A DNA stretch of 64,000 nt. Source: Rhodoferax antarcticus ANT.BR (GTDB lineage Bacteria > Pseudomonadota > Gammaproteobacteria > Burkholderiales > Burkholderiaceae_C). A program made the translations under genes and the position numbers. Positions 1 to 14,790 of the stretch are shown here, piece after piece. A model generated the notes under the pieces. It made no database searches. It saw only the letters and a list, made by a program, of their open reading frames with translations, and was not told the DNA's origin. The first letter of the stretch is position 1. Each line of letters begins with the position of its first letter. The stretch is from NCBI RefSeq assembly GCF_001938565.1, contig NZ_MSYM01000017.1:1-64000 (forward strand), written 5' to 3'.

Positions 1-273
1 CAAACTGCAGCTCGCAGTGGGCGCTTTTGCATCCACCGGCCAGGCGAATTGATCGGCCTCCAGACGCTTTTGCCACAAACAAAATCCGTTGCGGTGCCAG
101 TACAGGGCTTTGAGCTGGGTGTGGCGTCTGTTGGTGAAGACGTACAGCGCGCTGGCAAAGGGGGATAAGCCCAGTTCCTGCTCAACGAGTGCGCTTAAGC
201 CGTTGATGGCTTTTCTGAAGTCAATGGGTTCACGGCACAGGTAGACCTGATCGATGTTGCAGCCCGGGTGCAT
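1..273 (-). CDS. tnpB: IS66 accessory protein TnpB, partial (C-terminal end outside the window)
   Basis: This is the start of the IS66 Orf2/TnpB accessory protein, which works with TnpA and the TnpC transposase; its biochemical role is poorly known. The ATG at 273 overlaps the tnpA stop by one base (TGATG), the usual IS66 coupling. The visible part contains the family stretch with PIDFRKAINGL, followed by a segment rich in F, A and V and the QLKALYWHRNGF block. The sequence is identical to the tnpB of copy 2 at 13723-13995, so this part was either duplicated recently or homogenised. Confidence 0.85.
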   Translation of the reverse strand, partial: MHPGCNIDQVYLCREPIDFRKAINGLSALVEQELGLSPFASALYVFTNRRHTQLKALYWHRNGFCLWQKRLEADQFAWPVDAKAPTASCSL

Positions 274-785
274 CAGTGCGCTGCCTGTGCGTAGTGGCTC
301 AGGGCTGCCAGCCAGTGGGGTTCTGGGCGCGTTGGTAACTCCAGTCGTATGCCGCCGGCCAGTAGCAGGGTGCAGTTGGGCGGTATCGGGTTGTCGACTG
401 CAGCGACGCGCGTTGGGCTCGCTGTCGTTGGCGCTGTCGTTGTCATTGGCATAACCGGCACCATAGTCGGTGTCGCGCATCGGTGCTTTTGCGGCGCAAC
501 AGCTGACTGAGCACTGCCCCGGGGTTCTATGCTTTGGATGCGCAGGGCGATGAATTTGCCTTGCCCCAGTTCTGGTGTTATTGGTTCGAGGACGGCGGGT
601 TTCTCGGGTGAACTGGTCAGTGCAACTGCGTCAATCGCAGTGGCTTTGGTCTGACGCAGCTTTTGTTGCCAGCGGTACAGGGTTGAGGCTGCGAGGCCAT
701 GCGTTTTGGCATATACACCCATGCTGACTCCTTCGCGCCAGGCCGCTGCAACGTGTTGTGCAAATGTGTTTGGTTGTTCTTGCAT
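273..785 (-). CDS. tnpA: IS66 accessory protein TnpA (helix-turn-helix)
   Basis: This is the IS66 Orf1/TnpA protein, about 170 residues from the ATG at 785; an upstream start at 818 is possible. The N-terminal third is a transposase-type helix-turn-helix, with the block TLYRWQQKLRQ as recognition-helix region. The middle is low in complexity (Thr, Ala, Pro), and the C-terminus carries LLLAGGIRLELPTRP, typical of IS66 Orf1. Compared with copy 2 it has many substitutions, and its Thr/Ala linker replaces the Thr-Pro repeat found there. It is intact here, but without a visible tnpC I cannot say the element is mobile. Confidence 0.85.
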   Translation of the reverse strand: MQEQPNTFAQHVAAAWREGVSMGVYAKTHGLAASTLYRWQQKLRQTKATAIDAVALTSSPEKPAVLEPITPELGQGKFIALRIQSIEPRGSAQSAVAPQKHRCATPTMVPVMPMTTTAPTTASPTRVAAVDNPIPPNCTLLLAGGIRLELPTRPEPHWLAALSHYAQAAH

Positions 786-870
786 GTCCGCTTTTCCATC
801 TGAGTTGAGATGGTGCAAGCTTGCCGAAGTTGGCGGTGATTTACAAGGTTGGGGTTTATGGAGCGCTTAC

Positions 871-1060: not shown

Positions 1061-1204
1061 GTGAAGACCGATAACCAGATCGAGTATGCTGTGGCGCAGA
1101 CCAAGAGGGACTTCGCCCAGCAGATCGCGGTGGCCAGTGGTATGGAGTACCGAACACTGAAGTCCTTCGATGCGGATAAGCGGCACTTCCGTGTGCTGCT
1201 GTGA
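1061..1204 (+). CDS. Small protein of unknown function (47 aa)
   Basis: A short frame of 47 codons begins with GTG at 1061, nine bases after a GAGG ribosome-binding site at 1048-1051, and stops at 1204. The product is highly charged (many K, R, D, E), contains DFAQQIAVASGMEYRTL and has no membrane segment or Cys. I do not recognise it. It sits between the truncated gene ending at 1042 and the helicase starting near 1251, all on the plus strand. It could be a small component of the island operon, or unrelated leftover sequence. Confidence 0.5.
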   Translation: MKTDNQIEYAVAQTKRDFAQQIAVASGMEYRTLKSFDADKRHFRVLL

Positions 1205-1250
1205 ATTGGGTCTTTGAAATGCTTATCAACGGTGCAGCAAGTAAGAGGCT

Positions 1251-4200
1251 ATGTTTGTGATGAATTTGTATGTTGCGCTTGACCTGAATAACAAAGGAAT
1301 GAGTCGGGCTATCGCCGATATTCAGCGCCGCCATCAGGCATTCAAAAACTGGTGCAACGGCCGCGATGGGGCGGAAGTTTTGTATGAGTTGCTTTTTCCA
1401 AACAACATGCCGATCAGTGGCTATGTTTCCAATCGGCAGCGTGATAAGCAGAATCCACGATACGCACAGATGGCGATTCGAGTTAATGCAGCTGGGCGAG
1501 ATTGGCCTTTTCCGGAAGGATGCGCCTTCATCGCCACGGGAAGTTGGCTCACTGATCACCCTGCGCCACTCTTTATCATCAACGGGTTCATCGAGACTGC
1601 CGATCTGCCAGTACGATCTTTCGAGCGCGAAGTCACTGCATTTGCCGTGCATGACAGTCTGCAATCCACGCCGGGTCAGCAGCGCATTCAGCGCGTCAAT
1701 AGCCTGCTCACGCCGCAATTATTGGCCGACTTGCCGCCAATTACGCAGCAAACCGAAAAGCAGTTGGCTGAATGGACTGAATTCCTTCGATGGAAAGAAA
1801 GCCTCATCCGCCACAAGGCGCGCGGTTTGCGCTACATCAGCCGAGAGTGGCGTGACGAGCAGTTGGTTTTTTCCTTGGTCGCACAGAGCGCACAGGCTTT
1901 GCAACGAGACCGCAAGGCCTTGGGGAGGGATGATCTGGTGGCGTTTCAGGCTGGGCAATCAAAAGATCCATGGGTGTTCGGATTGCCTGAAAGAGAGGAA
2001 CGCCGCCTTCCACGGCTGGGGCAGGCGGGCAAACTCTTGGAGCCAGCATCGTTACCGAAGGATAGGAAATTACCCAAGGACGAAAACTTTCCGGAATGTC
2101 CTTGGCTTGCTCCCGTGCTTGCCGAATTGACTGTCTCACTGACCGAAGATGACGCGAATGGTCTCGCCAATACCGAGGAGCCAGAGGCCTTGCGCGTGCG
2201 CATTCTGAGCCAAATCCCTGAGTCCGGCTTTCTGTCCATTTCAACGGCAGGCGACATGAGCCTGATCAAACGCCATCAACAGGCGTTGCGGCAGTTGCAG
2301 GAACAGGGTGGTTATGCACCGTACCTGACTGATTATCTGTTCGAGGCAGCACAAGTGTCCGTGCCGCAGCGTCTGGAGCCGGTGACGCAATGGGCCAACA
2401 ACAAGCTCAACCCTGCCCAGAAAGAAGCTGTGGTCAAGATTCTTTCTGCGCCGGATTTGTGCTTGGTTCAAGGGCCGCCGGGCACGGGCAAGACCACTGT
2501 GATTGCGGAAGCCATCGTGCAACTGGCGCGGCGTGGGCAGCGGGTGCTGCTGGCATCGCAGGCGCATACCGCCGTGGACAACGCGTTGGATAGGTTAGGG
2601 CATGACGGTTCCTTACGCGTAGTTCGGTTGGCACGGAATGAAAGCAAGGTGACGGAAGATGGCGCGGCCTTTGTGGGGCAGGCATCCTTGCAGCGTTACT
2701 ACAAGGCCTTGGCAGGGCAAACCGAAGACCGTCTTGCTGTATGGAAGCGCGGTGACAAAGACTTGCGTCTCTTGCAAGAGTGGCATGAGCGCGCGACTTT
2801 CGTGTCGCACGACGCGAAGGAGTTGAACGCCAGACGCGGGCAGCTTGAAACGGACTTGGCATCGGCCCGCAGCCAGACAACGCAGGCTCTGCAGGCATAT
2901 GACGCTGCCTGCGCGATGCTGGATGAAGAAAAGGCCAAACGTCAGCGCCTGCATAGCGTTCAGGCCCTGCTGCATGGCGAAGCCAAAACGCTGCATGGCG
3001 ACTTGCGTGATGTGGAGCAACCTGCCAGAAATTTGGCGCAAGTTCTTGCTTCCTGTGAGGAGGCAGGATTGGTCGTGAAATTTTCGATGGGCGATTGGCT
3101 GGCACATGCAGGCAGCCGAGGCGAAATGTTGGCACACATGCTGGCTGCTTGGCGGCGCTTCACGAACGTACGAGAAGCCATTGCTGCAGATGTTCGCCGT
3201 CTGCGTGAAGCTGCGGACGGCCCTATTCAGGATGCAAGCACCCGGCTGCGCATTGAATCGCTCCGAAACGAGGTTAAAGCCTTGGAGGAGCAGATGGAGA
3301 AGGACGACGCTTTCGTAGATGCCTGGAGAACCACGCGCAAGAAGCTCAAAGAGTTGGAACAAGCTGGTGTTGGCTTGGAGCGCAGCCGTTATGACGGCCT
3401 ATTTAGCCAAGCTTTCAAATGGTGCGCCCCCATTGAAAATCCGACTCAACTGGCTGACGAAATGGATGCCTGTCTGAGTGTGCTGGAGAGTGCGCAACCG
3501 GTCATTGAGCAGGCTGTCGAAATCCTAAAGCGATCAATACAGACTCAGTTGTCGCTGCCCGCACCAGAAACCCCGAACGATGGCCTTGTGCGAGGCGCGC
3601 GGAACCAGGAGCGCAGCGCCCAAAGCAAGGTGGATGAATGGGACGATCAACGCAGACTGCATGAGCAGAAGATTGCGGCCCTGTTGCAGGATGAGGCGAT
3701 CACGCAAGGCAACCGGTTGCCGCTAGAACCTGCTGCGAATTTGTCGCAGCGCATCGAAACCGTCGCCCAAGTTGTCAAGGCCTTGGAGCAGCGCCAGGCC
3801 AACCAGCAACATGAACGCCAGACATGGGGGCCGTTGCTGGAAGATTGGATGCGCGATTTGAGCCCCAGCAAAGCCGCAGAAGAAGACTGGCAGCATCTGG
3901 GTGCGGATTTTCTGGCGAGCTGCAATGTAGTGGCCATTACCTGCAACGAAAACGAGCGCACGCTGGATGATGTCGGGCAGACGAGTTTTGATGTCGCCAT
4001 CATTGACGAAGTAAGCAAGGCTACGCCGCTGGAATTGCTGATGCCCCTGATGCGCGCGCGCCGCGCCGTTCTGGTGGGCGACCACCGCCAGTTACCGCCG
4101 CTATTTCAGGAGGGCGACGAAGCCCGCAGCTTCATGGATGAAGTAGAAGAAAACGAAGCGACCAACACGGAGGAAAACAGCGCAGGCAATATTGTAGGAG

Positions 4201-5219
4201 CGCAAACCTTGCTGACGCGCGACAACCTTCGCCGTTTCGAGAAGATGGTCACAGCCTCGTTGTTCAAGTCGCATTTCGAGATGGCGGACGAAGCCATACG
4301 TGCACGACTCAATGTGCAGTTCCGCATGCACCCGCAAATCATGGCGATGGTGAACCCTTTTTACGAAGGTCAGTTGGAATGCGGCATCCTTCGGCCTGAC
4401 GATGACCCAGATCCTAAACTTCGTCGTGTTCACGGACTGACATTGAAGAATGTGGACGGTGGCACGCCTCTACTCACTCCGGGCGACCATGCGTTGTGGG
4501 TGGACACAACCTACAATCTGCACAACCAAATTCACCGTGAAGACATGGACGGCAACCAGCCCCGGCGCACCAATCGCCTGGAAGCGGAGTTGATTGCCGA
4601 AACGCTAGAGCAAATCGAGAGGCAATCTGCCGCGCAGGGCTACTCTCGGTTAAAAAAACGCAAAGTCGGCGTGGTGTCTTTCTATGCCAACCAATGCCGA
4701 GAAATTCGCGCTGCCATCCGCCGCCGTCGTCCACAGGGAGCCAATGGTCGATATGAATTTCTCGATGTTGAAGTCAATACCGTGATTCGCTATCAGGGCA
4801 AGGAAAAGTCGATCGTGCTGGTCAGTATGGTGCGCCACGATGGATACGACCCTTTGCGCTCGGGCAATCAGCCCAGACGTCGTTCCAGCAAGGCCAATGT
4901 CGCTCGATTTGAATTTATTAATGTGGCTTTTTCACGCGCGCAGGAGCTGCTGATCGTCTTCGGTGCGAGAAGTATGTATGCATCCTATGAGGTGGATTTG
5001 CCGCGCATGGACAGTGCAGGCAGCGTGAAGCGAACCGTTTACAAAGATATCCTGGATCAACTGGAGCGCGATGCACGGTTGGTTCCGGCAAGGCAGTTGA
5101 TGTCACCCGACATGCTGCCCCAGCAGCCACAACAGCAGCATGGCAGGTTAAATGCTCCACCCAATCGGACGGCTGCACCCAAGGGCGACAAGTATGGTAA
5201 TCGCGGAGGCCGCTCATGA
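1251..5219 (+). CDS. Superfamily 1 (Upf1/Dna2-like) helicase with a long insert
   Basis: This 1322-residue protein is an SF1 nucleic-acid helicase. The Walker A motif GPPGTGKT is at residues 408-415. Walker B is IIDEVSKAT, with D919 and E920, followed by VGDHRQLPP near 943, QFRMHP, the YQGKE motif and VAFSRAQELL near 1225. About 500 residues separate motifs I and II; this insert is rich in E, K, Q and A and looks like a long coiled coil, as in some Upf1-like and nuclease-linked helicases. Residues 1-400 match nothing I know. ATG at 1251 is only two bases from an AAGAGG site, so ATG at 1260 is an alternative start. The stop overlaps the next gene (ATGA), so the two are translationally coupled. 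It probably unwinds DNA or RNA for the neighbouring PIN nuclease. Confidence 0.9.
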   Translation: MFVMNLYVALDLNNKGMSRAIADIQRRHQAFKNWCNGRDGAEVLYELLFPNNMPISGYVSNRQRDKQNPRYAQMAIRVNAAGRDWPFPEGCAFIATGSWLTDHPAPLFIINGFIETADLPVRSFEREVTAFAVHDSLQSTPGQQRIQRVNSLLTPQLLADLPPITQQTEKQLAEWTEFLRWKESLIRHKARGLRYISREWRDEQLVFSLVAQSAQALQRDRKALGRDDLVAFQAGQSKDPWVFGLPEREERRLPRLGQAGKLLEPASLPKDRKLPKDENFPECPWLAPVLAELTVSLTEDDANGLANTEEPEALRVRILSQIPESGFLSISTAGDMSLIKRHQQALRQLQEQGGYAPYLTDYLFEAAQVSVPQRLEPVTQWANNKLNPAQKEAVVKILSAPDLCLVQGPPGTGKTTVIAEAIVQLARRGQRVLLASQAHTAVDNALDRLGHDGSLRVVRLARNESKVTEDGAAFVGQASLQRYYKALAGQTEDRLAVWKRGDKDLRLLQEWHERATFVSHDAKELNARRGQLETDLASARSQTTQALQAYDAACAMLDEEKAKRQRLHSVQALLHGEAKTLHGDLRDVEQPARNLAQVLASCEEAGLVVKFSMGDWLAHAGSRGEMLAHMLAAWRRFTNVREAIAADVRRLREAADGPIQDASTRLRIESLRNEVKALEEQMEKDDAFVDAWRTTRKKLKELEQAGVGLERSRYDGLFSQAFKWCAPIENPTQLADEMDACLSVLESAQPVIEQAVEILKRSIQTQLSLPAPETPNDGLVRGARNQERSAQSKVDEWDDQRRLHEQKIAALLQDEAITQGNRLPLEPAANLSQRIETVAQVVKALEQRQANQQHERQTWGPLLEDWMRDLSPSKAAEEDWQHLGADFLASCNVVAITCNENERTLDDVGQTSFDVAIIDEVSKATPLELLMPLMRARRAVLVGDHRQLPPLFQEGDEARSFMDEVEENEATNTEENSAGNIVGAQTLLTRDNLRRFEKMVTASLFKSHFEMADEAIRARLNVQFRMHPQIMAMVNPFYEGQLECGILRPDDDPDPKLRRVHGLTLKNVDGGTPLLTPGDHALWVDTTYNLHNQIHREDMDGNQPRRTNRLEAELIAETLEQIERQSAAQGYSRLKKRKVGVVSFYANQCREIRAAIRRRRPQGANGRYEFLDVEVNTVIRYQGKEKSIVLVSMVRHDGYDPLRSGNQPRRRSSKANVARFEFINVAFSRAQELLIVFGARSMYASYEVDLPRMDSAGSVKRTVYKDILDQLERDARLVPARQLMSPDMLPQQPQQQHGRLNAPPNRTAAPKGDKYGNRGGRS

Positions 5220-7615
5220 AGCTGATAGAAATTTTAGTTCCCTTGCCCTTGTATCGCATTGAATCCGATGTGACCTATCACACCGAGCGTAAGCCCACGG
5301 TATTCGAACGGATGGTGTTGCGACTTTGTGATCCTGGGCGGCATTTCCCTGACAAGCAGAACTTGTCTTTGCTGGGTGTTTTCCGCGATCAACTGGGCGC
5401 AGGCGATGTGCGTGAACTGCTGGAAGGCTGCGTATCTGAACTTTCCGCTTTGGGTGCTTTGCCTAAACGTTACTCTCTGGATTCGCTCGAGGCACCTCTA
5501 ACTGAGCTTGAATTGACTGCTGAGGGCTTGCAATTCTTGTGCAGCGATAGTCTGCCGGTGCGCTCGCGCACGATCAAAGTCAGTCATCACTACGACCCTA
5601 TTGGAGATGAGATCAAACCGGTCAAGAAGGATGATGGGCTGCAGAGCCAAGGCAACACTCGCCGCATCAGCGCTGCAGACATATCTTTGAGGCCGGAAAA
5701 TCCTTTACCGCTGGTTGAACGCGCGATAGCGCAGGAGACTTATGACTGGAAAAATCCTGCAACAGTTATAGATCGCATCGCGCCCGTGGTACAGCCAGCG
5801 GGAGGGCTAGAGCGCCGACTTGAAATCTCATGCAGCGAGGACGGTGTACTGGCCGTGAGCGCCCCGCGTGATGCTGCGTTGCAGCGCTGGTTGGAGTATG
5901 CTCAATCCGAACTGGCGTGGGAAATTCTGCTTGCTGATGCACTAACAAGCGAGCCGAATGCTTTGCTGCCCGTCATTGACTCTTCTGTTTTACGAGAGGC
6001 CCGCACTGCCCGCCCCATTACTGCAATTTATGGGGGCGCAGCCAGAGCGCGTTTGTGCATTGTTGCGCAAGGCGTTGCGACGGCGGATGCGGCAATACCG
6101 ACCATCGTTTTATCGTCTGAAGTGAGCGCACCGGAGCTGGTTGCTAATGGCAAACAACCGATCGTGTTCACGTTGCTTGTGCCCACCCCCGCAGGAATGA
6201 TAACGGGATTTCGTAGCTTGACTCTACCGCAGATCAGCGGAGCGAGCGCTCAAGCAGAAGTGGCCGGTAACCTCCGCCTCTATTGGGCCGGACAACCCCG
6301 CTCGTGTAGCTTGGTGGTGACATTGAACGACCAAGCTTCAACCGCGCTTTGGGCCAAGCTGCGTAGAGACTTAGAAAGCGCTTGCGAGCACTCCGATGAC
6401 CCACGCATTGCCTTCATGCCTGTGGCATGGAGGGATGTCGATGCAATTGGACAAACGGTTTGGCCGTGGCTTGCCACGCGTTCTAAACAGCCGCTGAACG
6501 GTCTGATGACGTTGGTTGAGCCTGCTGTACAAGCAATTGGTTTGTGGCGGCCTGATAGGAAGGACTGGAAATTTGCGTGGGAAGGATCTCTGGCGAAAGC
6601 TTTTGATACGTCGTTGATGCATACGCCCAGTCAGCTTGAACATGAAGAGGTCGTTTCTCTTTTGAACCAGATAGCTCAGATGTTGTCTGCGGACAAAGCT
6701 GTGCCGCTGCAAGCCGCGCTGCTGCGTCATGCTGCTCCCATTCGCGCCTTGGAATTATTGGCAAATCTGCGATCTGCCTTGCCTTCCTCCACAGAAATTC
6801 CAGAAGAATTGCTCTCCGTTGAATTGCGGCAAGTGTGGCTGGAACACGCATTGGAGCGCAAAGAGTTGAAGCTGTATGGCCCACACGCTATACAGCAGCC
6901 GGTGCAAGATATTGAGAAAGCGGTTCAGAATGTTTACCGGAGTATTGGCGATCAGGCATTGAAAGCGGCGCGTATTAGCCAAATAGATGTGCGTACCTTG
7001 ACCCCTCATGCCTTGGAGGCCGTGCGCATTTGGCGGAAAGCTGCGGAGCATTTACATGCTCTAGATACATCATCGCCCCTCTGGGATGCGTTGAATGAAG
7101 CAGTGGAAAGCTGGAATCTTCTGGCGCAGGAGAAGCTGGCCCCGGTCGAGATAGGGCATCGCGTTGTCGTGTTCGATACTAGCGCTCTGATGGAAAACCC
7201 TGAACTTTTACAGGAGCTGCGCTCCAACGACATTCCGATCGTACCGCATCGTGTACTGAGTGAATTGGATGGGTTGAAGACAAGTGAAGATGAGACTCGC
7301 TCGTTCAAGGCGCGCGCAGCTATTCGTCAGTTGGATGCAACCTCGACCCAGATCCGCCATGAAACAGAATACACGGCCTTGCTGCCATCAGAGTGGGATG
7401 CCAACCAACCAGATCATGCCATTCTTTCAACGGCTTTATTCTTCCGGTTGAATGAAGTGTTGTTTGTTAGTGATGACATCAACCTACGAAACAAAGCGCA
7501 GTCGCTTGGCCTGAACACGCAAAATTCCAAGTCATATGCGCCTTCGCGCCTTGTGCCCGCCGCTGCGCCAAGCATACATCCACGGAAGCAAGATAAAAAA
7601 AACCAAAGGAAATGA
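5216..7615 (+). CDS. Large protein with C-terminal PIN ribonuclease-like domain
   Basis: This protein has 799 residues. Residues 1-640 are not recognised; they are mixed alpha/beta with no membrane segment. The C-terminal 150 residues form a PIN domain: VVFDTSAL with D654, LSELDGLK with E683 and D685, D733 in QPDHAIL, and the strand FVSDDINLR with D753/D754. That acidic set suits a metal-dependent ribonuclease. The PIN domain resembles the type found in PhoH-linked proteins more than VapC toxins, and no antitoxin-like gene is adjacent. It overlaps the helicase stop by four bases, which suggests fixed stoichiometry with the helicase. The large N-terminal region may be an adaptor. Confidence 0.75.
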   Translation: MKLIEILVPLPLYRIESDVTYHTERKPTVFERMVLRLCDPGRHFPDKQNLSLLGVFRDQLGAGDVRELLEGCVSELSALGALPKRYSLDSLEAPLTELELTAEGLQFLCSDSLPVRSRTIKVSHHYDPIGDEIKPVKKDDGLQSQGNTRRISAADISLRPENPLPLVERAIAQETYDWKNPATVIDRIAPVVQPAGGLERRLEISCSEDGVLAVSAPRDAALQRWLEYAQSELAWEILLADALTSEPNALLPVIDSSVLREARTARPITAIYGGAARARLCIVAQGVATADAAIPTIVLSSEVSAPELVANGKQPIVFTLLVPTPAGMITGFRSLTLPQISGASAQAEVAGNLRLYWAGQPRSCSLVVTLNDQASTALWAKLRRDLESACEHSDDPRIAFMPVAWRDVDAIGQTVWPWLATRSKQPLNGLMTLVEPAVQAIGLWRPDRKDWKFAWEGSLAKAFDTSLMHTPSQLEHEEVVSLLNQIAQMLSADKAVPLQAALLRHAAPIRALELLANLRSALPSSTEIPEELLSVELRQVWLEHALERKELKLYGPHAIQQPVQDIEKAVQNVYRSIGDQALKAARISQIDVRTLTPHALEAVRIWRKAAEHLHALDTSSPLWDALNEAVESWNLLAQEKLAPVEIGHRVVVFDTSALMENPELLQELRSNDIPIVPHRVLSELDGLKTSEDETRSFKARAAIRQLDATSTQIRHETEYTALLPSEWDANQPDHAILSTALFFRLNEVLFVSDDINLRNKAQSLGLNTQNSKSYAPSRLVPAAAPSIHPRKQDKKNQRK

Positions 7616-7619
7616 AACC

Positions 7620-8765
7620 ATGAGTCGGGCAGACGAATATCGCTACCAAATTCAACGGCAACGCAAGCAAGAGCTTGATCGACAGCGTGTGCGCGAGACA
7701 ACGCGTCCGTTCCTTGATCGCTACCGCAGCGTATTGACTGATGTCATCAATCAAGGACTAGATGCCGTAGTTACGGGAGAGTTTCGTGAGTTGAGTTCCG
7801 CTCTTGACCGCATGGAGACTTTGCTGGATTCCGACCCGTTTGCTGCCAGAGACATGAGCCGTTCCTTAGGTGGACGATTTCACGGATTACCGCGATTTGC
7901 GCGTGAGCAGAGTCGTTCCCGTCAAGACGCGGAGCTGGCCGCAGCCGACTCATTCCGCAAAGCGCATCAAGCTGAGGCCGAACGACAGTTGCAGCTGAAG
8001 GCAGAGATTGAAACAGCATGGCGCGAAGGTTTGAGCGGCTGGAGCACACCTGTCGCACTCAACGCCGCGTTTGCCGAGTTGCAACAACTACGCGAGCGAC
8101 TACTTGGTAATGCTGCCAACAACATGACATCGGCGCAAATTTCAGCCGCCTTGCTCGACGTTCAGCAGCGGTATGAGGCCGACGCTGAACGCCAGTTGCA
8201 GGAAATGAAAAGTCGGGTACAGCGCGAGGCGGTGACTGATGCACTGACGCTGCAAAGAGCGCAGTTGGAGCAGGAAGCGAATAAGAACGGCGGCGAACGC
8301 GCCGCTAAGTTGCGCGAGGCGTTGGCGAATGCAACCGGGCTGGCTCCTAAAGAACAGGCTGAAGTCCTGAACCAACTGGCGCAAGAACAAGATGAAGCGG
8401 CCGTAGATGAAAGCCAGCGCCGTGAGGTGGTGCGGGCGGTTTATTTGTCACTGCAGCAAGCAGGCTTTGTCGTAGATGGGCCAGAGCATCTTGTATCGCA
8501 AGGGCAAGACGAAGTGCTGATTCGCGCTCGTCGCCCTGCTGGTGCGCAGGCAGACTTTCGCGTCAACTTGAGCGGCCATCTCAGCTACAAATTTCATCAA
8601 TACAAGGGCAAAACTTGCGAGAAAGATGTCACACCCATCATGGCGACACTACAAGATGCTTACGGCATCAGCCTGAGCGATAAACGCGTGATTTGGGTCA
8701 ATCCCGATGATCAGGATCAGGATGCTCGCCCTTACCCTGATGCTACACAGGAGAGAAGCAAATGA
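7620..8765 (+). CDS. Coiled-coil protein of unknown function, island operon
   Basis: This protein has 381 residues from the ATG at 7620, which has a clear AAAGGA site about ten bases upstream; the frame is open further upstream inside the PIN gene, but that is not needed. Residues 1-290 are strongly helical and rich in Q, R, E and A, likely coiled coil. The last 90 residues form a compact alpha/beta segment containing YLSLQQAGFVV, DEVLIRARRP and HLSYKFHQYKGKTC. I do not recognise the family. Its stop overlaps the start of the AAA+ ATPase gene (ATGA). By position and shape it could be an adaptor or substrate holder between the ATPase and the nuclease-helicase pair, but that is inference. Confidence 0.7.
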   Translation: MSRADEYRYQIQRQRKQELDRQRVRETTRPFLDRYRSVLTDVINQGLDAVVTGEFRELSSALDRMETLLDSDPFAARDMSRSLGGRFHGLPRFAREQSRSRQDAELAAADSFRKAHQAEAERQLQLKAEIETAWREGLSGWSTPVALNAAFAELQQLRERLLGNAANNMTSAQISAALLDVQQRYEADAERQLQEMKSRVQREAVTDALTLQRAQLEQEANKNGGERAAKLREALANATGLAPKEQAEVLNQLAQEQDEAAVDESQRREVVRAVYLSLQQAGFVVDGPEHLVSQGQDEVLIRARRPAGAQADFRVNLSGHLSYKFHQYKGKTCEKDVTPIMATLQDAYGISLSDKRVIWVNPDDQDQDARPYPDATQERSK

Positions 8766-10624
8766 GTTCAGCTTTGTTGCCTTGGCAAGAAGACTTTCGC
8801 CGCGAATGCGGCATACGGCGCGGTTTGATTTTGCACGGCAATACGGGTGATTTGACACCCGATCCCGAAGCGCCAGGGCAATGGATTGCTTTGCCGACCG
8901 CGTTGATGAACCTGCTGCGTCAGCGTGGGTATCAGCATGTGGTTTTCTGGAGCCGCGTCAATGGTGTTAGCGGCGTTGATGCGAGGACTTGGGGGGAATT
9001 GCAAAGCTCAGTTACGACACCTGCAGTGAGAGAAAGCACGTCCAAGGGGAGCGCCTATGACATGGGCGAATTTCCGCCTACATCAGTGCCGAGCCCCGCA
9101 TCCAGCGGCATTTCGGCAAGCGCGGATGACTTGCTGGCTGTTGCTGCGCAATGGCTGCGACAACCGCGTGCCGAAAAGCCAGTCGCTTTTGTCTTGGACT
9201 GGACTCAATATTTGTTTGGTAACGTCAACTCGTTGAGTGAAAACGAGCGCGGATGGCTGCTGCGCCTGGGGCAGGCTACCCGTGATGCCGCAGTGATTCG
9301 CAATCCTGAAAGCATCGGGCAGCCTCAATCATTGCTGGTGTTGCTGTGTGGAGGCTTGAATGTGTTGCCGCCATCGCTCTACTTGAATAATCCCCTGTTT
9401 AAAGAAATAGCAATTCCCTTGCCGACACGGCAAATTCGCGAATCTGCTGTGCTCGGGTTGAAAGAAGTGTTTAGGCTGCAGCCTCCCTTGCAGCAAGGCG
9501 GGCGGGAGCTGTCTGACTTCGTGGATGGCCTGGAAGGCCAGAGTATTCGCGACATTCAAAATTTGGCACGACTTTCACGTCAGGAAACTGAAGTCTCAAG
9601 TGCGCTTTCTCTGCTCAACCTGTATCGCCATGGCCGCAGGCACAGTCCCTGGGAGCAGCTGGATCACAAAAAGCTTCAGACGATTGTCGAAACGCTAGGG
9701 CAGCGCGTCAAAGGTCAAGGAGAGGCCATTGAGTCGGTACGACGCATCCTCGTGCGTGCCTTCACGGGACTTTCGGGCCTTCAACATTCATATAAGCAAC
9801 GCACTCCCAAGGGCGTGTTGTTTTTTGTCGGCCCTACGGGCGTCGGCAAAACTGAACTGGCGAAGTCTATTGCCGAGTTCCTCTTCGGCGACGAAGAGGC
9901 CTGTCTTCGTTTCGATATGTCCGAGTTCAATCACGAGCATGCTGACCAGCGGCTGGTGGGTGCTCCGCCAGGTTATGTGGGCTACGAAGCTGGTGGGCAG
10001 TTGACCAACGCAGTTAAGCAAAGACCATTTTCCCTGTTGCTGTTCGATGAAATTGAGAAAGCACACCCCCGCATTCTCGACAAGTTTTTGCAAATTCTAG
10101 AAGATGGGCGCTTGACGGATGGTAAGGGCGAAACAGTGATGTTTTCGGATACCGTCATCGTCTTTACCTCGAACATTGGCGCAGCCGAAGTCAGCCATGA
10201 AAGCCAGGATGTGCGTAATGAGTTCATCCAAAAAGTGCGACGGCATTTTGTGCATGAGTTAAAGCGTCCAGAGTTGTTAGGGCGTATTGGCGAAGCCAAC
10301 ATCATTCCTTTTAACTTCATGCGTGACGATAGCTTCTTGATTGATATCGCCCGCGCCAAGTTGGAGCCACTGCGCAAAGGGCTGAAGGACAAATGGGGTG
10401 TTTCGGACTTAAAACTGGTCAAAGAGGCCGAGATATTGGCTTTGTTGGTTAGGGAGGTGGATCGCGGAACGGGCGGTCGTGGCGTCCCCAACGCACTTAC
10501 CAATATACTGATTGACCCATTAGCCGATTTTCTATTTGAACAAATGGCAGCTCCTGATCAGATCCGGGGCAAGGTAATCGAGGTTCATATTGCAGGTGGC
10601 AAATTATTATTCGAGCTGGAGTGA
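8762..10624 (+). CDS. Clp/Hsp100-type AAA+ ATPase with degenerate N-terminal half
   Basis: This protein has 620 residues. The C-terminal half is a ClpA/ClpB D2-type AAA+ module: GPTGVGKT at 357-364, DMSEF and GAPPGYVGYEAGGQL pore-loop region, Walker B LLLFDEIEKAH with D429/E430, sensor region IVFTSNIGA, then a Clp C-terminal domain. Residues 1-330 have AAA-like traces, a Walker B-like FVLDWTQYL and LLCGGLNVLPPSL resembling sensor 1, but no Walker A, so this looks like a dead first ATPase ring. No ClpP-type IGF loop is obvious. It is coupled to the coiled-coil gene before it and followed at once by a radical SAM gene. It likely remodels or unfolds a protein partner of the island. Confidence 0.85.
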   Translation: MSSALLPWQEDFRRECGIRRGLILHGNTGDLTPDPEAPGQWIALPTALMNLLRQRGYQHVVFWSRVNGVSGVDARTWGELQSSVTTPAVRESTSKGSAYDMGEFPPTSVPSPASSGISASADDLLAVAAQWLRQPRAEKPVAFVLDWTQYLFGNVNSLSENERGWLLRLGQATRDAAVIRNPESIGQPQSLLVLLCGGLNVLPPSLYLNNPLFKEIAIPLPTRQIRESAVLGLKEVFRLQPPLQQGGRELSDFVDGLEGQSIRDIQNLARLSRQETEVSSALSLLNLYRHGRRHSPWEQLDHKKLQTIVETLGQRVKGQGEAIESVRRILVRAFTGLSGLQHSYKQRTPKGVLFFVGPTGVGKTELAKSIAEFLFGDEEACLRFDMSEFNHEHADQRLVGAPPGYVGYEAGGQLTNAVKQRPFSLLLFDEIEKAHPRILDKFLQILEDGRLTDGKGETVMFSDTVIVFTSNIGAAEVSHESQDVRNEFIQKVRRHFVHELKRPELLGRIGEANIIPFNFMRDDSFLIDIARAKLEPLRKGLKDKWGVSDLKLVKEAEILALLVREVDRGTGGRGVPNALTNILIDPLADFLFEQMAAPDQIRGKVIEVHIAGGKLLFELE

Positions 10625-10637
10625 GGTTGTGCATTGG

Positions 10638-11213
10638 ATGAACTTGGCATCTCGTCTACCTTGCACAGAAGCAGAAGGGCCGGGACGAAGAGCTGCATTG
10701 TGGGTGCAAGGTTGCAACAAGCGTTGCCGTGGCTGCTGCAACCCAACGTATCTGTACCTGGTTGAGCGTGAGCTTGTTTCGGCTTCATCAGTTCTGGACT
10801 GGCTGGCAAACGCGCATCATGCGCATGCTCTTGAAGGAGTGACGTTTCTCGGAGGCGAGCCCCTGTTGCAAGCACAAGGCTTGGCTGTCGTTGCGCAAGG
10901 AGCGCAGTCACTGGGGCTATCGGTGATGGTATTCAGTGGATATACAAAACACGAGCTTGATGTGTTGCAGTTACCTGGGGCTGATCAACTACTTCGTTAC
11001 ACGGATGTGTTGGTAGATGGCCCGTATGAGGCGAATTTACCTGAGCATAGTCGCCGTTGGTCGGGCTCTACGAATCAACAATTCCATTACCTGACAGCGC
11101 GTTACGACGCACGGATTGAAAGCGAAGGTGAAGTTGATCGTGTGCTTGAGGTTCGCCTGCAAAAAGACGGCTCGGTGTTTATAAATGGATGGCCAGAAAA
11201 AGTCTTGCGCTGA
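10638..11213 (+). CDS. NrdG-like radical SAM protein (4Fe-4S)
   Basis: This protein has about 191 residues from ATG 10638, eleven bases after GAGTGAGG; starts at GTG 10629 or TTG 10590 would overlap the ATPase gene. It has a radical SAM cluster motif, C26-x3-C30-x2-C33 in GCNKRCRGCC, then the SAM-binding GGEPLLQ segment, and DVLVDGPYEA and WSGSTNQQ typical of small activases such as NrdG. Such proteins normally abstract a hydrogen to make a glycyl radical on a partner enzyme. No glycyl-radical enzyme is nearby, so the partner may be an island protein, or the chemistry may differ. An extra Cys (C34) follows the motif. Confidence 0.85.
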   Translation: MNLASRLPCTEAEGPGRRAALWVQGCNKRCRGCCNPTYLYLVERELVSASSVLDWLANAHHAHALEGVTFLGGEPLLQAQGLAVVAQGAQSLGLSVMVFSGYTKHELDVLQLPGADQLLRYTDVLVDGPYEANLPEHSRRWSGSTNQQFHYLTARYDARIESEGEVDRVLEVRLQKDGSVFINGWPEKVLR

Positions 11214-11227
11214 ACGATCCGGTCAGA

Positions 11228-11244
11228 CGAACTGAACCAGTTCG
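11228..11244. repeat. Short perfect inverted repeat between the two radical SAM genes
   Basis: CGAACTG and CAGTTCG form a perfect 7-bp stem around AAC in the 117-base gap after the NrdG-like gene. No T-run follows, so it is a poor terminator; it could be an operator or a transcript-processing hairpin. The gap to the next gene is the longest inside the operon, so the second radical SAM gene may have its own control. Confidence 0.35.
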
Positions 11245-11330
11245 CGTAAATTTCATTCGCCACCGCCACCCGTACCACTCATTTACAACAAAAATCTACG
11301 CGTTAGCGCAAGGTTAGACTGAGGCTTTTA

Positions 11331-12479
11331 ATGCATCTCCAAGGGCACCTTTTATACATCGACATTACACAAGTATGCGGCATCGGCTGTTCTTTCTGTA
11401 TGTATGCAGATAGGCACAAGACAGGTATGAGCATGGAACTCTCGGCATTGGGACGTGAGAATCTCTCAACGCTGATCAATGCGCCGGATGTAAAGCGCAT
11501 ATCCATCAGTGGAGAGGGAGAGCCTCTTAACAATACTAAGGTTTTCCATGAGATCCTTGGTTTGTCAAAAGGCGGCAGGCGCTTTGAGTTCATAACTAGT
11601 GGTTTCTTCCCGCATGACAAGATGCTGGATTTGTACGAAACCACCAATCAAATCCTGTTGGCCAATGGCGACTCCTGCAACATCCGACTGAGCGCCGACA
11701 GCCACCATATTGAAAAAGTGAAATGGCGCGCTCATGGTTTCAGCCTAGATTACTTTCAGCGCCGCCGACCGTCCGGGCTGAGTTTCTCATTTCGATCGAT
11801 TGATACCGATCGTGACTTTACTCGCAGATACCTATTGGGCGAGCTTGAAAAATTGGGCATAAGCGCGAGAGTCGAGCCGCAGAGCATCCTGGAGGATGCC
11901 TTGGTCGTGGGCGATCAACTCTATAGTATTGATTACAAAAACTTGGTGCATCCAGCTCCAAGCACTCCACCAGGTTACCTAGACCTAGAAGGGTACATCA
12001 AAGCGATCGAGTCCAAAGTTAACAAGCATTTCACTTTCGGCAGCCTGAATAAGTCCCCTCAGGCCAATGGACTGGATGTGACTATCAAGCCTAATGGCGA
12101 CGTGTTCCTATATGGCATCGAGAGCAAGCTGTTGGGTAATATCCATTTCGACCAAATTGACTGGCAGAAATTAGTTGCCCACGTGATTGAAACACCGCTT
12201 TTCCGAGCACTTTATACCCAGCCATTGTCCGAGTTGTTGATGCGCGCAGAGAGCGATAACAAGTTGCGTACAGTCGTCGCAAAGGTGAATAACCGTAAGC
12301 GCTCCATCAACCCCAGTAGCTCAAGGAATCGTTCTGGCCGCCAAATCTGCTCTGCGCACATTCCAAGGCAGCAACGCCTCCACTGCTTCAACCGTATTGG
12401 CCGCTGGCAAGTCGCGCAGCACCCGGCGCAGCCAAGCATAGGGCTCCAGTCCATTGGCTTTGGCCGTCTGCACCAGTGA
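11331..12479 (+). CDS. Second radical SAM protein, 3' end replaced by IS66 sequence
   Basis: About 321 native residues are followed by about 60 residues read from the IS66 end. The cluster motif is C16-x3-C20-x2-C23 (VCGIGCSFCMY), the SAM-binding motif is SISGEGEPLNN, and near the native end LDVTIKPNGDVFLYG resembles the start of a SPASM/twitch region, but without its cysteines. The native coding sequence stops at 12294, where the IS66 terminus begins; after that the frame reads the antisense of tnpC and ends at 12479. The true C-terminus is missing from the window. Function is unknown. It is not clearly a viperin, and its substrate could be a peptide, RNA or metabolite linked to the island. 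Confidence 0.7.
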   Translation: MHLQGHLLYIDITQVCGIGCSFCMYADRHKTGMSMELSALGRENLSTLINAPDVKRISISGEGEPLNNTKVFHEILGLSKGGRRFEFITSGFFPHDKMLDLYETTNQILLANGDSCNIRLSADSHHIEKVKWRAHGFSLDYFQRRRPSGLSFSFRSIDTDRDFTRRYLLGELEKLGISARVEPQSILEDALVVGDQLYSIDYKNLVHPAPSTPPGYLDLEGYIKAIESKVNKHFTFGSLNKSPQANGLDVTIKPNGDVFLYGIESKLLGNIHFDQIDWQKLVAHVIETPLFRALYTQPLSELLMRAESDNKLRTVVAKVNNRKRSINPSSSRNRSGRQICSAHIPRQQRLHCFNRIGRWQVAQHPAQPSIGLQSIGFGRLHQ

Positions 12480-13617
12480 ATAGATCACCGCACTGGCACA
12501 TGCGCCCAGCATGCCAGGCGAATGATGTCACCGCCACGCTCCAGCGCGTTGTAGCCGTCATAGCCATCGGTCATCAAATAACCCTTGTAGCCTTCAAGCA
12601 GGCGAATCGGCACCGCCGCACTGCGACTGCGGTCGTAGTCATAAAGCGCCACCGGCTTGTCTGGCGGACCCCCGGTTTGCACCCACATGTAACTGTTGGA
12701 CGTGGGGGCCTTGTCCTTTTCTTTAAGCACCTGAACCACCGTCTCATCCATGTGCAGCAAGCTGCAGTCCAACAAGATGTCACGCGTCAGGTTGTGCAGC
12801 GGCTGCAGTAAGCCTGCGCAGCCAATGACCCAGCGCGCCAGGGTTTGGCGCGGCACCACCACATCGTGGCGACTTAAAACATGCTCGAAGCGCGCCAGTG
12901 GCAAACCATCAACGAACTCGGGCGGCCAACAGCATGGCCAAAAAGTCGGCGCTGGCGTTGCTCTTGGGCAGTGGCTGGGGCGGTAGTGCTGCCGTGACAG
13001 GCGCATGCACACTGGCCGGGCAGCCGTAGCGCTTGCGGATGTTGCGGATCACACGCACTTGCATCGGCACGATGTCGATTTGCTCGCTGACCTCTTGGCC
13101 TTGTCTCCACCATCTCGGTGCCACAAGGGCAGATGCGATCAGCTTGCGGGACATCATGAATCACATCCACACGGGGCAACTCTGCGGGCAATGGGCGACG
13201 TTTGCCGCGAGCCACGGGTCGGGCTGGTTGAGTAGCAACGCCATCTTCAGGGCTTATTGACGTTGCTGGCGGGATGATGGCCTGGTCTTGGGCCCCAGGA
13301 TTGAGTTGCGCCAGAACTTCAGCCTCATCGAACAAGCGGCTCTGGGCGCTGAGTTGCTCGGAGCTGGCACCAAACAGGCGGTGCCTGGCCAAGGTGGCTT
13401 GCTCAAGCATGCGGATGATGTATTCATGAGCTTGCAGGCGCATGGCCGCCAGGCTGGTTTGATAGGTCTCTTGTGCGGCTTTCTCACAGGCCGCCTGAGT
13501 GGCTGACAGCAGGGCTTCAAGCTGGTCTGAAGTGGTCGGTAAACCCGACACTTTTTGCGGCTTCGGGAAGACAATTTCCAGTGGCAAAAAGGTGGCTTCA
13601 AGAGAGCTAAAAGACAT
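12321..13617 (-). pseudogene. tnpC: IS66 transposase TnpC, frameshifted and internally deleted
   Basis: The reading starts at ATG 13617 with a normal IS66 N-terminus (coiled region, LARHRLFGASSEQLS). It shifts frame around 13110-13160, in the zinc-binding region CPCGTEMVE, and again near 12950-13000. Next comes the catalytic core with LLHMDETVVQV and YLMTDGYDGYN, two of the DDE acids, up to CWAH near 12500. The reading then jumps to the family C-terminus (SLVQTAKANGLEPYAWL, EALLPWNV). The segment carrying the third catalytic residue is missing. The element cannot make its own transposase, although TnpC from a sister copy could act on its ends. Confidence 0.85.
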
Positions 13618-13638
13618 GCTGTATTTTAGCCGTTTCCC

Positions 13639-13995
13639 CTATGAAACACGCGCAAAATTGAGTGTTTTATGAGGTGTATTTTTCGACAAATCAAAGCCTT
13701 CCAAGAGCCAGCCAAACTCATGCAAACTGCAGCTCGCAGTGGGCGCTTTTGCATCCACCGGCCAGGCGAATTGATCGGCCTCCAGACGCTTTTGCCACAA
13801 ACAAAATCCGTTGCGGTGCCAGTACAGGGCTTTGAGCTGGGTGTGGCGTCTGTTGGTGAAGACGTACAGCGCGCTGGCAAAGGGGGATAAGCCCAGTTCC
13901 TGCTCAACGAGTGCGCTTAAGCCGTTGATGGCTTTTCTGAAGTCAATGGGTTCACGGCACAGGTAGACCTGATCGATGTTGCAGCCCGGGTGCAT
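13639..13995 (-). CDS. tnpB: IS66 accessory protein TnpB
   Basis: This is a complete 118-residue IS66 Orf2 protein. ATG at 13995 overlaps the tnpA stop (TGATG). It contains the family blocks PIDFRKAINGL, LSPFASALYVFTNRR and QLKALYWHRNGFCLWQKRL. It ends 22 bases before tnpC. The portion also present in copy 1 is identical, which suggests recent common origin or gene conversion. Confidence 0.9.
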   Translation of the reverse strand: MHPGCNIDQVYLCREPIDFRKAINGLSALVEQELGLSPFASALYVFTNRRHTQLKALYWHRNGFCLWQKRLEADQFAWPVDAKAPTASCSLHEFGWLLEGFDLSKNTPHKTLNFARVS

Positions 13996-14537
13996 CAGTG
14001 CGCTGCCTGTGCGTAGTGGCTCAGGGCTGCCAGCCAGTGGGGGTCTGGGCGCGTTGGTAACTCCAGTCGTATGCCACCGGCCAGTAGCAGGGTGCAGTTG
14101 GGCGGTATCAGGTTGTCGACTGCAGCGACGCGCGTTGGGCTCGCTGTCGCTGTCGCTGTCGCTGGTGTTGGTGTTGGTGTTGGTGTTGGTGTTGGTGTTG
14201 GCATAACCGGCGCCATAGTCGGTGTCGCGCACCGGTGCTTCTGCGGCGCAACAGCTGTTTGAGCACTGCACCGGGGTTGGGCGCTTTGGATGCGTAGGGC
14301 GATGAATTTGCCTTGCGCCGGTTCGGGCTCAGTGGGTTCGAGGGCTTCGGGTTTGGCGGGTGAGGGGGTCAGGGCAATTGCGTCAATTGCAGTGGCTTTG
14401 GTCTGGCGCAGCTTTTGTTGCCAGCGGTACAGGGTTGAAGCTGCGAGGCCATGCGTTTTGGCATATGCGGCCATGGTGACTCCTTCGCGCCAGGCCGTTG
14501 CAACGTGTTGCGCAAATGAGGTTGATCGTGCTTGCAT
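13995..14537 (-). CDS. tnpA: IS66 accessory protein TnpA with Thr-Pro repeat linker
   Basis: This is an IS66 Orf1 protein of about 180 residues from ATG 14537; 14570 is an alternative start. It has an N-terminal helix-turn-helix with TLYRWQQKLRQ and a C-terminal LLLAGGIRLELPTRP block. Between them is a hexanucleotide-encoded Thr-Pro tract followed by Ala-Thr alternation, absent from copy 1 and likely a product of replication slippage. It probably helps TnpC bind the ends. Confidence 0.85.
   Translation of the reverse strand: MQARSTSFAQHVATAWREGVTMAAYAKTHGLAASTLYRWQQKLRQTKATAIDAIALTPSPAKPEALEPTEPEPAQGKFIALRIQSAQPRCSAQTAVAPQKHRCATPTMAPVMPTPTPTPTPTPTPATATATASPTRVAAVDNLIPPNCTLLLAGGIRLELPTRPDPHWLAALSHYAQAAH
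14143..14200. repeat. Hexanucleotide microsatellite inside tnpA
   Basis: Four-odd units of GCTGTC run into five units of GGTGTT on the plus strand. On the coding (minus) strand they encode alternating Ala-Thr and then Thr-Pro. The equivalent place in copy 1 (about 420-458) is shorter and irregular. The unit is a multiple of three, so length change keeps tnpA in frame. Confidence 0.8.
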
Positions 14538-14790
14538 GTCCGTTTTTCCATCTGAGTTGAGATGGCGCAAGCTTGCCGAAGTTGGCAGTGATTTGTAAGT
14601 CTGGGGTTTGTGGAGCGCTTACAGTTCACTGGCTTTTCATCGCTGCTTTTTTTGGCAGTCTGTCTGCCAACGCACTGAGTTCATACCGCGCGGCACTTAC
14701 TCTGGGCCCAAAGTAAGTTGCGCGTCTGTGCGCATGGCTTTTCCCGCCTTGGCAACTCGATCCGCGCAACCACTGCTCGCAAGGAACCGA

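Follow-up and report, generated by a model that had tools for sequence, protein, structure and literature searches.

A conserved five-gene operon of helicase, PIN, coiled-coil, Clp-like and radical SAM proteins in Rhodoferax antarcticus and on plasmids, probably a mobile conflict system

Near the start of the window, that is, the whole stretch of 64,000 nucleotides analysed here (Rhodoferax antarcticus ANT.BR, contig NZ_MSYM01000017.1, positions 1 to 64,000), lie five intact genes in the same direction (1251-11213, + strand), encoding a superfamily 1 (SF1) helicase, a PIN-domain protein, a coiled-coil protein, a Clp-like AAA+ ATPase and an NrdG-like radical S-adenosylmethionine (SAM) protein. 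These five genes are a real conserved unit, and the set is probably a mobile conflict system. More specifically, it may be a mobile anti-invader system, anti-phage or anti-plasmid, in which helicase and PIN nuclease attack RNA under the control of an unfoldase, a scaffold and a radical enzyme, a reading that we tentatively prefer while giving it slightly less than an even chance. A sequence-only reading of this DNA had described a tight operon of these families, which coordinates and domains bear out, and had counted a second radical SAM gene as a further member. That part has to be corrected, as only five genes make up the conserved operon; the sixth, a truncated passenger, is a piece of a separate module cut by IS66.

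Gene order in other genomes was checked through a one-genome-per-species scan with the radical SAM alignment, which gave 381 relatives, the best 80 of which were analysed. Thirty of the top 42 loci (L013-L054) carry helicase, PIN, coiled-coil, Clp and radical SAM genes in this order, or 30 of the 33 loci having at least 8.5 kb of upstream sequence. The three exceptions among the 33 show helicase and radical SAM only (L043), no recognised PIN (L046) and radical SAM only (L051). Nine loci lie on shorter stretches, seven of them keeping part of the set, with Clp and radical SAM genes side by side; another (L034) has helicase, coiled-coil and radical SAM frames, and another (L050) radical SAM only. 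In the 38 lower-ranked loci (L055-L092), no Clp protein of the family was found by profiles, the only AAA matches being weak ones of 24 and 20 bits in L061 and L076; in 18 of them frame picking recovered no match of any kind, the radical SAM gene included, so that the count for this group is rough.

Because these loci had been picked by radical SAM, the link was also tested from the PIN and coiled-coil proteins. Among 72,556 plasmid records, PIN finds nine and the coiled coil ten, comprising six of Moellerella and those of Polaromonas, Acinetobacter, Photobacterium and, by coiled coil only, Leisingera. A Clp gene neighbours the coiled-coil match in 10/10 records and a PIN match accompanies it in 9/10. 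Six of the ten were inspected, and all five genes stand in order in each; in the remaining four, all from Moellerella, the PIN, coiled-coil and Clp matches adjoin one another. Moreover, no lineage other than the five with the set is hit by the coiled-coil search of plasmids. Over 34 complete loci, the tree distances of the five proteins are correlated for each pair (Pearson 0.73-0.98, permutation p 0.001), which partly reflects the shared descent of the loci, and the catalytic motifs are nearly invariant. The earlier suggestion that the genes belong together is thus upheld by gene order, correlated trees and co-occurrence on plasmids.

Table 1. Features at the left end of the window, with coordinates in window positions
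Feature	Position	Strand	Remarks
End of left IS66-like copy	1..870	-	same terminal repeat as in right copy, at 860-870; tnpA-like frame resembles that of the right copy
SF1 helicase, UPF1/IGHMBP2 type	1251..5219	+	1322 aa (amino acids); long insertion between motifs I and II
PIN-domain protein	5216..7615	+	799 aa; 4-base overlap with helicase gene; PIN at about 645-778
Coiled-coil protein	7620..8765	+	381 aa from conserved start, used in place of 7536 given by the open reading frame (ORF) program; 4-base gap after PIN gene
Clp-like AAA+ ATPase	8762..10624	+	620 aa; 4-base overlap with coiled-coil gene
NrdG-like radical SAM protein	10629..11213	+	194 aa; GTG start at 10629 used in place of 10590 given by the ORF program; 4-base gap after Clp gene
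Truncated second radical SAM gene	11331..12294	+	starts 117 bases after fifth gene; cut by IS66 at 12295
IS66-family insertion element, right boundary	12295..14622	-	terminal repeats at 12295 and 14612-14622

The helicase belongs to the UPF1-like SF1 helicases, as it passes the Pfam cut-offs of 27 bits for both AAA_11 (127 bits) and AAA_12 (109.8 bits) and contains the SF1 motifs, motif I being present in 34/34 loci and the key residues of the other motifs in 33/34. Its sequence matches the structures of SMUBP-2, DNA2 and UPF1 in stretches separated by an insertion of about 400 residues, and K414 is among its catalytic residues. The PIN protein is likewise a member of the PIN nucleases by its Pfam score (PIN_4, 78 bits against a cut-off of 21.9), by the fold of its model (predicted local distance difference test, pLDDT, 85) and by its acidic site, in which D654, E683 and D754 are kept in 34/34 loci and D733 in 33. 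The nearest structure to the modelled PIN domain is that of human SMG6 (Z 15.3, root-mean-square deviation (rmsd) 3.1, 128 aligned), followed by that of yeast Nmd4, in complex with Upf1 (Z 14.0, rmsd 4.3, 141 aligned); other PIN domains score just below these two, and VapC toxins match more weakly (Z about 10). Residues 1-644 are given no function because the structure matches listed all fall on the PIN domain. A gene for a UPF1-type helicase that overlaps one for an SMG6-like PIN protein is striking, though a shared fold shows no function, and the likeness to UPF1 with SMG6 or Nmd4 in eukaryotic nonsense-mediated decay (NMD) is one of single parts, not of the NMD process, of a helicase-PIN contact or of paired common descent. 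In moderately diverged pairs, the helical part of the PIN protein (16% identity) and the helicase insertion (20%) diverge fastest and the Clp D2 module least (69%), as would be expected if the two former were recognition surfaces.

No family was assigned to the coiled-coil protein by Pfam at E 1 or by PADLOC and NCBIfam at E 0.1. Its model (pLDDT 81.5) consists of long helices and a C-terminal alpha/beta domain, which is conserved, with C333 in 34/34 loci. The fold search with this domain ended in a tie at Z 9.2 between spermine synthase (rmsd 3.0, 89 aligned) and Chk1 KA1 (rmsd 2.3, 78 aligned), and the tie is not interpreted. The Clp-like protein (AAA_2, 171 bits) has a single D2-type module with the pore loop of ClpB, and the key residues of Walker A, Walker B and the GYVG pore loop are invariant in the 34 loci; its catalytic residues include K363 and E430, and Y405 belongs to the pore. 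It shares this D2-type module with ClpB, ClpA and ClpC, but it differs from ClpB in scoring 258.8 bits against an equivalog cut-off of 1232.1, the match being confined to residues 301-617 instead of covering both AAA modules. Its N-terminal 300 residues, without a P-loop, are family-specific and weakly match VCP-like ATPases (E 3.8e-4); they may represent a degenerate AAA module.

The fifth protein is a member of the radical SAM superfamily, having the cluster motif and passing the Pfam cut-offs (Fer4_12, 102.3 bits against 22; Radical_SAM, 30.9 against 29.5), with CX3CX2C, which holds the three cluster cysteines C29, C33 and C36, and GGEP in 34/34 loci. These motifs and its small fold family are shared with NrdG and the PFL activase, but the score to NrdG (NCBIfam TIGR02491) is 87.3 bits, under the cut-off of 126.1. 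In addition, no protein with NRDD (PF13597) or Gly_radical (PF01228) was found in the host genome (0/1 each; the controls gave hits in 6 and 3 of 14 genomes), so the usual partner of NrdG is missing there. A role in glycyl-radical activation was therefore rejected, as a simple glycyl-radical-like loop pattern is also absent from the five window proteins. The viperin (pVip) cut-off of NCBIfam, 180 bits, was missed by both the fifth protein (20.2) and the sixth (16.5).

No system matching the five-gene set was present in PADLOC 2023 or NCBIfam 2026, which agrees with the sequence-only reading, whose author knew of no named system of this composition, and no description was found in open PubMed Central papers, a search that left most subscription papers and bioRxiv preprints outside. 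The closest likenesses concern single proteins. Mokosh, represented in PADLOC by MkoA/MkoC helicases, combines an MkoA-type helicase with a partner MkoB or kinase parts, and MkoA is the best PADLOC match of the window helicase (347.9 bits, best stretch residues 754-1273, a part of the protein). However, no MkoB match was seen among the six window proteins at E 0.1 and no kinase domain among the best 25 of 30 Pfam families for the helicase, and we know of no counterpart in Mokosh of the PIN, coiled-coil, Clp and radical SAM proteins. In Dodola, DolB, which is ClpB-like, matches the AAA module (69.8 bits), but there is no DolA match among the six window proteins scanned. The PLuB helicase-like protein (NF040671, cut-off 999 bits) is likewise not reached, the window helicase scoring 162.3 bits.

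The helicases of Hhe, ProA and PDC-S37 have an SF1 core as well, and in Aristaeella and Rhizobium such helicases are encoded in operons together with members of the Clp and radical SAM families seen here. Nevertheless, the window helicase scores only 33.5 bits to Hhe and 41.6 to ProA (cut-offs 2000 and 1500), neither DUF4011 nor MTES_1575 is among the best 25 of 30 Pfam families for it, and the nuclease in the window is a separate PIN protein. The related operons were reached by a plasmid search with the Clp protein, which led to loci in Aristaeella, Rhizobium, Caballeronia and Geminocystis. In all of these but Geminocystis, the genes for the Clp and radical SAM proteins are clustered with that of a giant DUF4011-SF1-MTES_1575 helicase-nuclease, which also has a kinase domain in Rhizobium and Caballeronia; the Aristaeella helicase is related to PDC-S37, Hhe and ProA (PADLOC, NCBIfam) and the Rhizobium one to PDC-S37 and Hhe (PADLOC). 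The coiled-coil proteins of the DUF4011-type loci align with that of the window over a C-terminal stretch (hhalign probability 67%, E 5e-5, 72 columns), which is suggestive of a stretch common to both groups. Eleven further loci, some at contig ends, were sampled by the Clp N-terminus (L110-L120), giving radical SAM in six, a DUF4011-type helicase in five and a coiled-coil match in five, several of them weak; the pairing of Clp and radical SAM therefore recurs, though not always. The occurrence of a DUF4011 helicase fused to a restriction endonuclease together with Clp, radical SAM and coiled-coil proteins suggests a modular class. As a separate observation, genes for a DO-GTPase2 and a HEAT-repeat protein are found close to the radical SAM gene and the Clp-family frames, here split in two, of one of the eleven loci (L120:5067-12448).

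The distribution of the five-gene set is sparse, patchy and horizontal. Proteins 77-95% identical to those of the window occur in Zoogloea, Acidovorax, a Pseudomonas bin, Comamonas, Diaphorobacter, Undibacterium, Halopseudomonas, Stutzerimonas and Moellerella plasmids, and also in a Lentisphaerae bin that is possibly contaminated; complete copies are present as well in Microbacterium, Paenibacillus, Ruminococcus and Synergistaceae. Of 148 relative genomes, that of the window is the one with a full-length PIN protein, and another shows a PIN-only match; the Clp N-terminal family was found in 7/369 class genomes and 9/398 phylum genomes, with the own genome and G513 counted in both. The mobile placement proposed from the sequence is thus matched by copies on plasmids of five lineages and by rarity in genomes. 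Carriage by phages was considered and rejected, since a scan of viral contigs with the radical SAM alignment gave two relatives, neither locus showing the other four genes.

Some of the neighbourhoods point to defence. BrxL and a gene of the DarT family are close to the Acinetobacter copy, and 118 flanking ORFs, drawn at random from 266 at 37 loci, matched 133 PADLOC families at 1e-10, those listed including BrxL, JukA, Csm3, Cas6 and type I specificity subunits. The same number of control ORFs (118 of 174, from 17 arbitrary stretches, not genome-matched) gave 47 families. Because many overlapping families match one and the same protein and the control is unmatched, this result leans towards defence without proving it.

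Beyond the conserved unit itself, we infer the defence role, RNA as the target, the contacts between the proteins and the targets of the Clp-like and radical SAM proteins. The UPF1-like helicase would load on RNA of the invader, or on single-stranded DNA, and travel along it in company with the PIN protein, which would cut RNA at its SMG6-like active site, while the coiled-coil protein would act as a scaffold. The Clp-like ATPase, with its intact motor of ClpB-D2 type and pore loop, might thread or remodel a protein belonging to the complex or to the invader and so switch the nuclease on or reset it. Finally, the NrdG-like enzyme would modify a protein residue, perhaps on a chain offered by the unfoldase. 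Several points weigh against this scheme. The PIN fold is common to many nucleases, so that RNA as the target is not proven, and the radical SAM enzyme, which has no known substrate, is the loosest partner in the tree correlation (r 0.73-0.86, below the other four). Furthermore, strong matches, with DpdF, PDC-S08 and PsyrT among those listed, turned up in the unmatched PADLOC control too, some neighbours belong to ordinary metabolism (trp-type genes beside L054), and no five-gene copy was found in E. coli when it was searched by the Moellerella Clp gene.

Four other explanations have been considered. The operon might destroy the transcripts of rival plasmids rather than of phages for the benefit of its carrier plasmid or island, as a means of inter-element competition or plasmid maintenance. 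Its presence on plasmids of the five lineages, with 7/10 coiled-coil records typed as conjugative, speaks for this explanation; still, many copies are on long contigs of chromosomal appearance (for example, L020, L023, L026 and L045), anti-phage and anti-plasmid roles are not separable by sequence, and we regard it as unlikely. In RNA surveillance or stress recovery, helicase and PIN would dispose of damaged RNA or stalled complexes, bound protein would be removed by the Clp-like protein, and the radical SAM enzyme would repair or tune a component; the resemblance of the UPF1-like helicase and SMG6-like PIN to eukaryotic RNA decay and the ClpB-type motor speak for this. Such a function is harder still to accept, given a patchy, horizontal spread unlike that of housekeeping genes and related operons that pair the core with helicases of anti-phage families. 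A suicide module similar to toxin-antitoxin systems, with PIN as a toxin held by the other subunits and freed on infection or loss, would fit the weaker match of the fold to VapC toxins; it is improbable for a PIN protein of this size, encoded not in a two-gene pair but in a constant set of five genes, three others of which encode ATPases or enzymes, and it partly overlaps with the anti-invader reading if the defence is abortive. That IS elements merely assembled unrelated neighbours is hardly credible, because, despite the IS66 copies that flank the window locus and a sixth gene that is such a neighbour, the lack of co-occurrence that this would entail is contradicted for the five genes by the retained order, the correlated trees and the absence of the coiled coil from other plasmids.

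The anti-invader reading, together with the DUF4011-type operons, leads to a broader proposal, which we consider doubtful at present. It holds that a core of Clp, radical SAM and coiled-coil proteins may define a bacterial immune class with exchangeable helicase-nuclease effectors, an RNA-cutting UPF1/SMG6-like pair here and a DUF4011 helicase-endonuclease with a kinase elsewhere; the radical enzyme would chemically arm or mark the chain that the unfoldase threads, and the NMD nuclease would have a prokaryotic counterpart in the helicase-PIN pair. To our knowledge, arming or marking of a threaded polypeptide by a radical enzyme is not a known control step in immunity. Helicase-nuclease defence is already known as a kind, and it is the Clp and radical SAM core that may prove categorically new. 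What is conserved in several phyla and plasmids, and lacking from the defence catalogues searched, is a set that joins a bacterial UPF1-type helicase and an SMG6-like nuclease with an unfoldase and a radical enzyme without a known host substrate. If the set is defensive, radical-SAM protein chemistry and Hsp100-type remodelling would be combined in one immune machine, and a bacterial immune relative of helicase-PIN RNA decay becomes a testable question.

To the right of the operon, the listed 382-aa ORF (11331-12479) is a fusion with IS sequence, because IS66 interrupts the frame at 12295. The right IS66 copy is identified by DDE_Tnp_IS66, LZ_Tnp_IS66 and TnpB_IS66 in Pfam; in the left copy, where the tnpA-like frame alone was tested, HTH_Tnp_1 reaches 20.7 bits, below the cut-off of 24.1. 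As the contig starts at window base 1, the left boundary of the locus is unseen. A composite IS66 transposon was not evident, as the bases bordering the right element do not repeat and the left copy is ended by the contig start; an ungapped comparison of both IS ends (57%), which ignores insertions and deletions, was not used.

The second radical SAM gene was rejected as a member of the operon not only because IS66 cuts its frame but also because its relatives reside in another operon. These are on plasmids of Raoultella, Citrobacter and Enterobacter (the first two inspected), records that the PIN and coiled-coil searches did not return, and the operon encodes a WYL protein, two large proteins, the radical SAM protein, a PHP-type phosphatase, two hypothetical proteins and a convergent glycosyltransferase, adjoining DUF262 genes or AbpA. 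The WYL/radical SAM/PHP module, a mobile operon located at L121:4091-13330 and L122:4089-13330 with large proteins of 404 aa and 528 aa and left as a remnant at window 11331-12294, may be another undescribed defence or modification module. In L014, and in reverse orientation in L016, it adjoins the five-gene set; L018 and L024 show just its radical SAM gene, which in L024 lies at the edge of the locus. Eight other loci have another kind of radical SAM gene as a neighbour, and those in L005 and L006 differ again, giving a total of 14/47 loci examined, without a background rate.

Other arrangements of radical SAM genes were observed at these and further loci. In three loci from Myxococcota or Deltaproteobacteria bins (L057, L067 and L071), the relatives of the fifth protein are flanked by frames of 541-590 aa and 966-994 aa and Clp is missing, which makes this a further recurring context. 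A radical SAM gene and a JmjC-type cupin gene are found beside the five-gene set in L017, L019, L022, L044, L048 and L049 (Pfam run for L048 and L019), accompanied in L048 by a leucine-rich repeat protein, and these recurrent neighbours resemble a peptide- or protein-modifying cassette. After the Acinetobacter copy, a thymidylate-kinase-like gene, a radical SAM gene and a 162-aa gene (L005:18082-20064) possibly form a nucleotide-modifying cassette.

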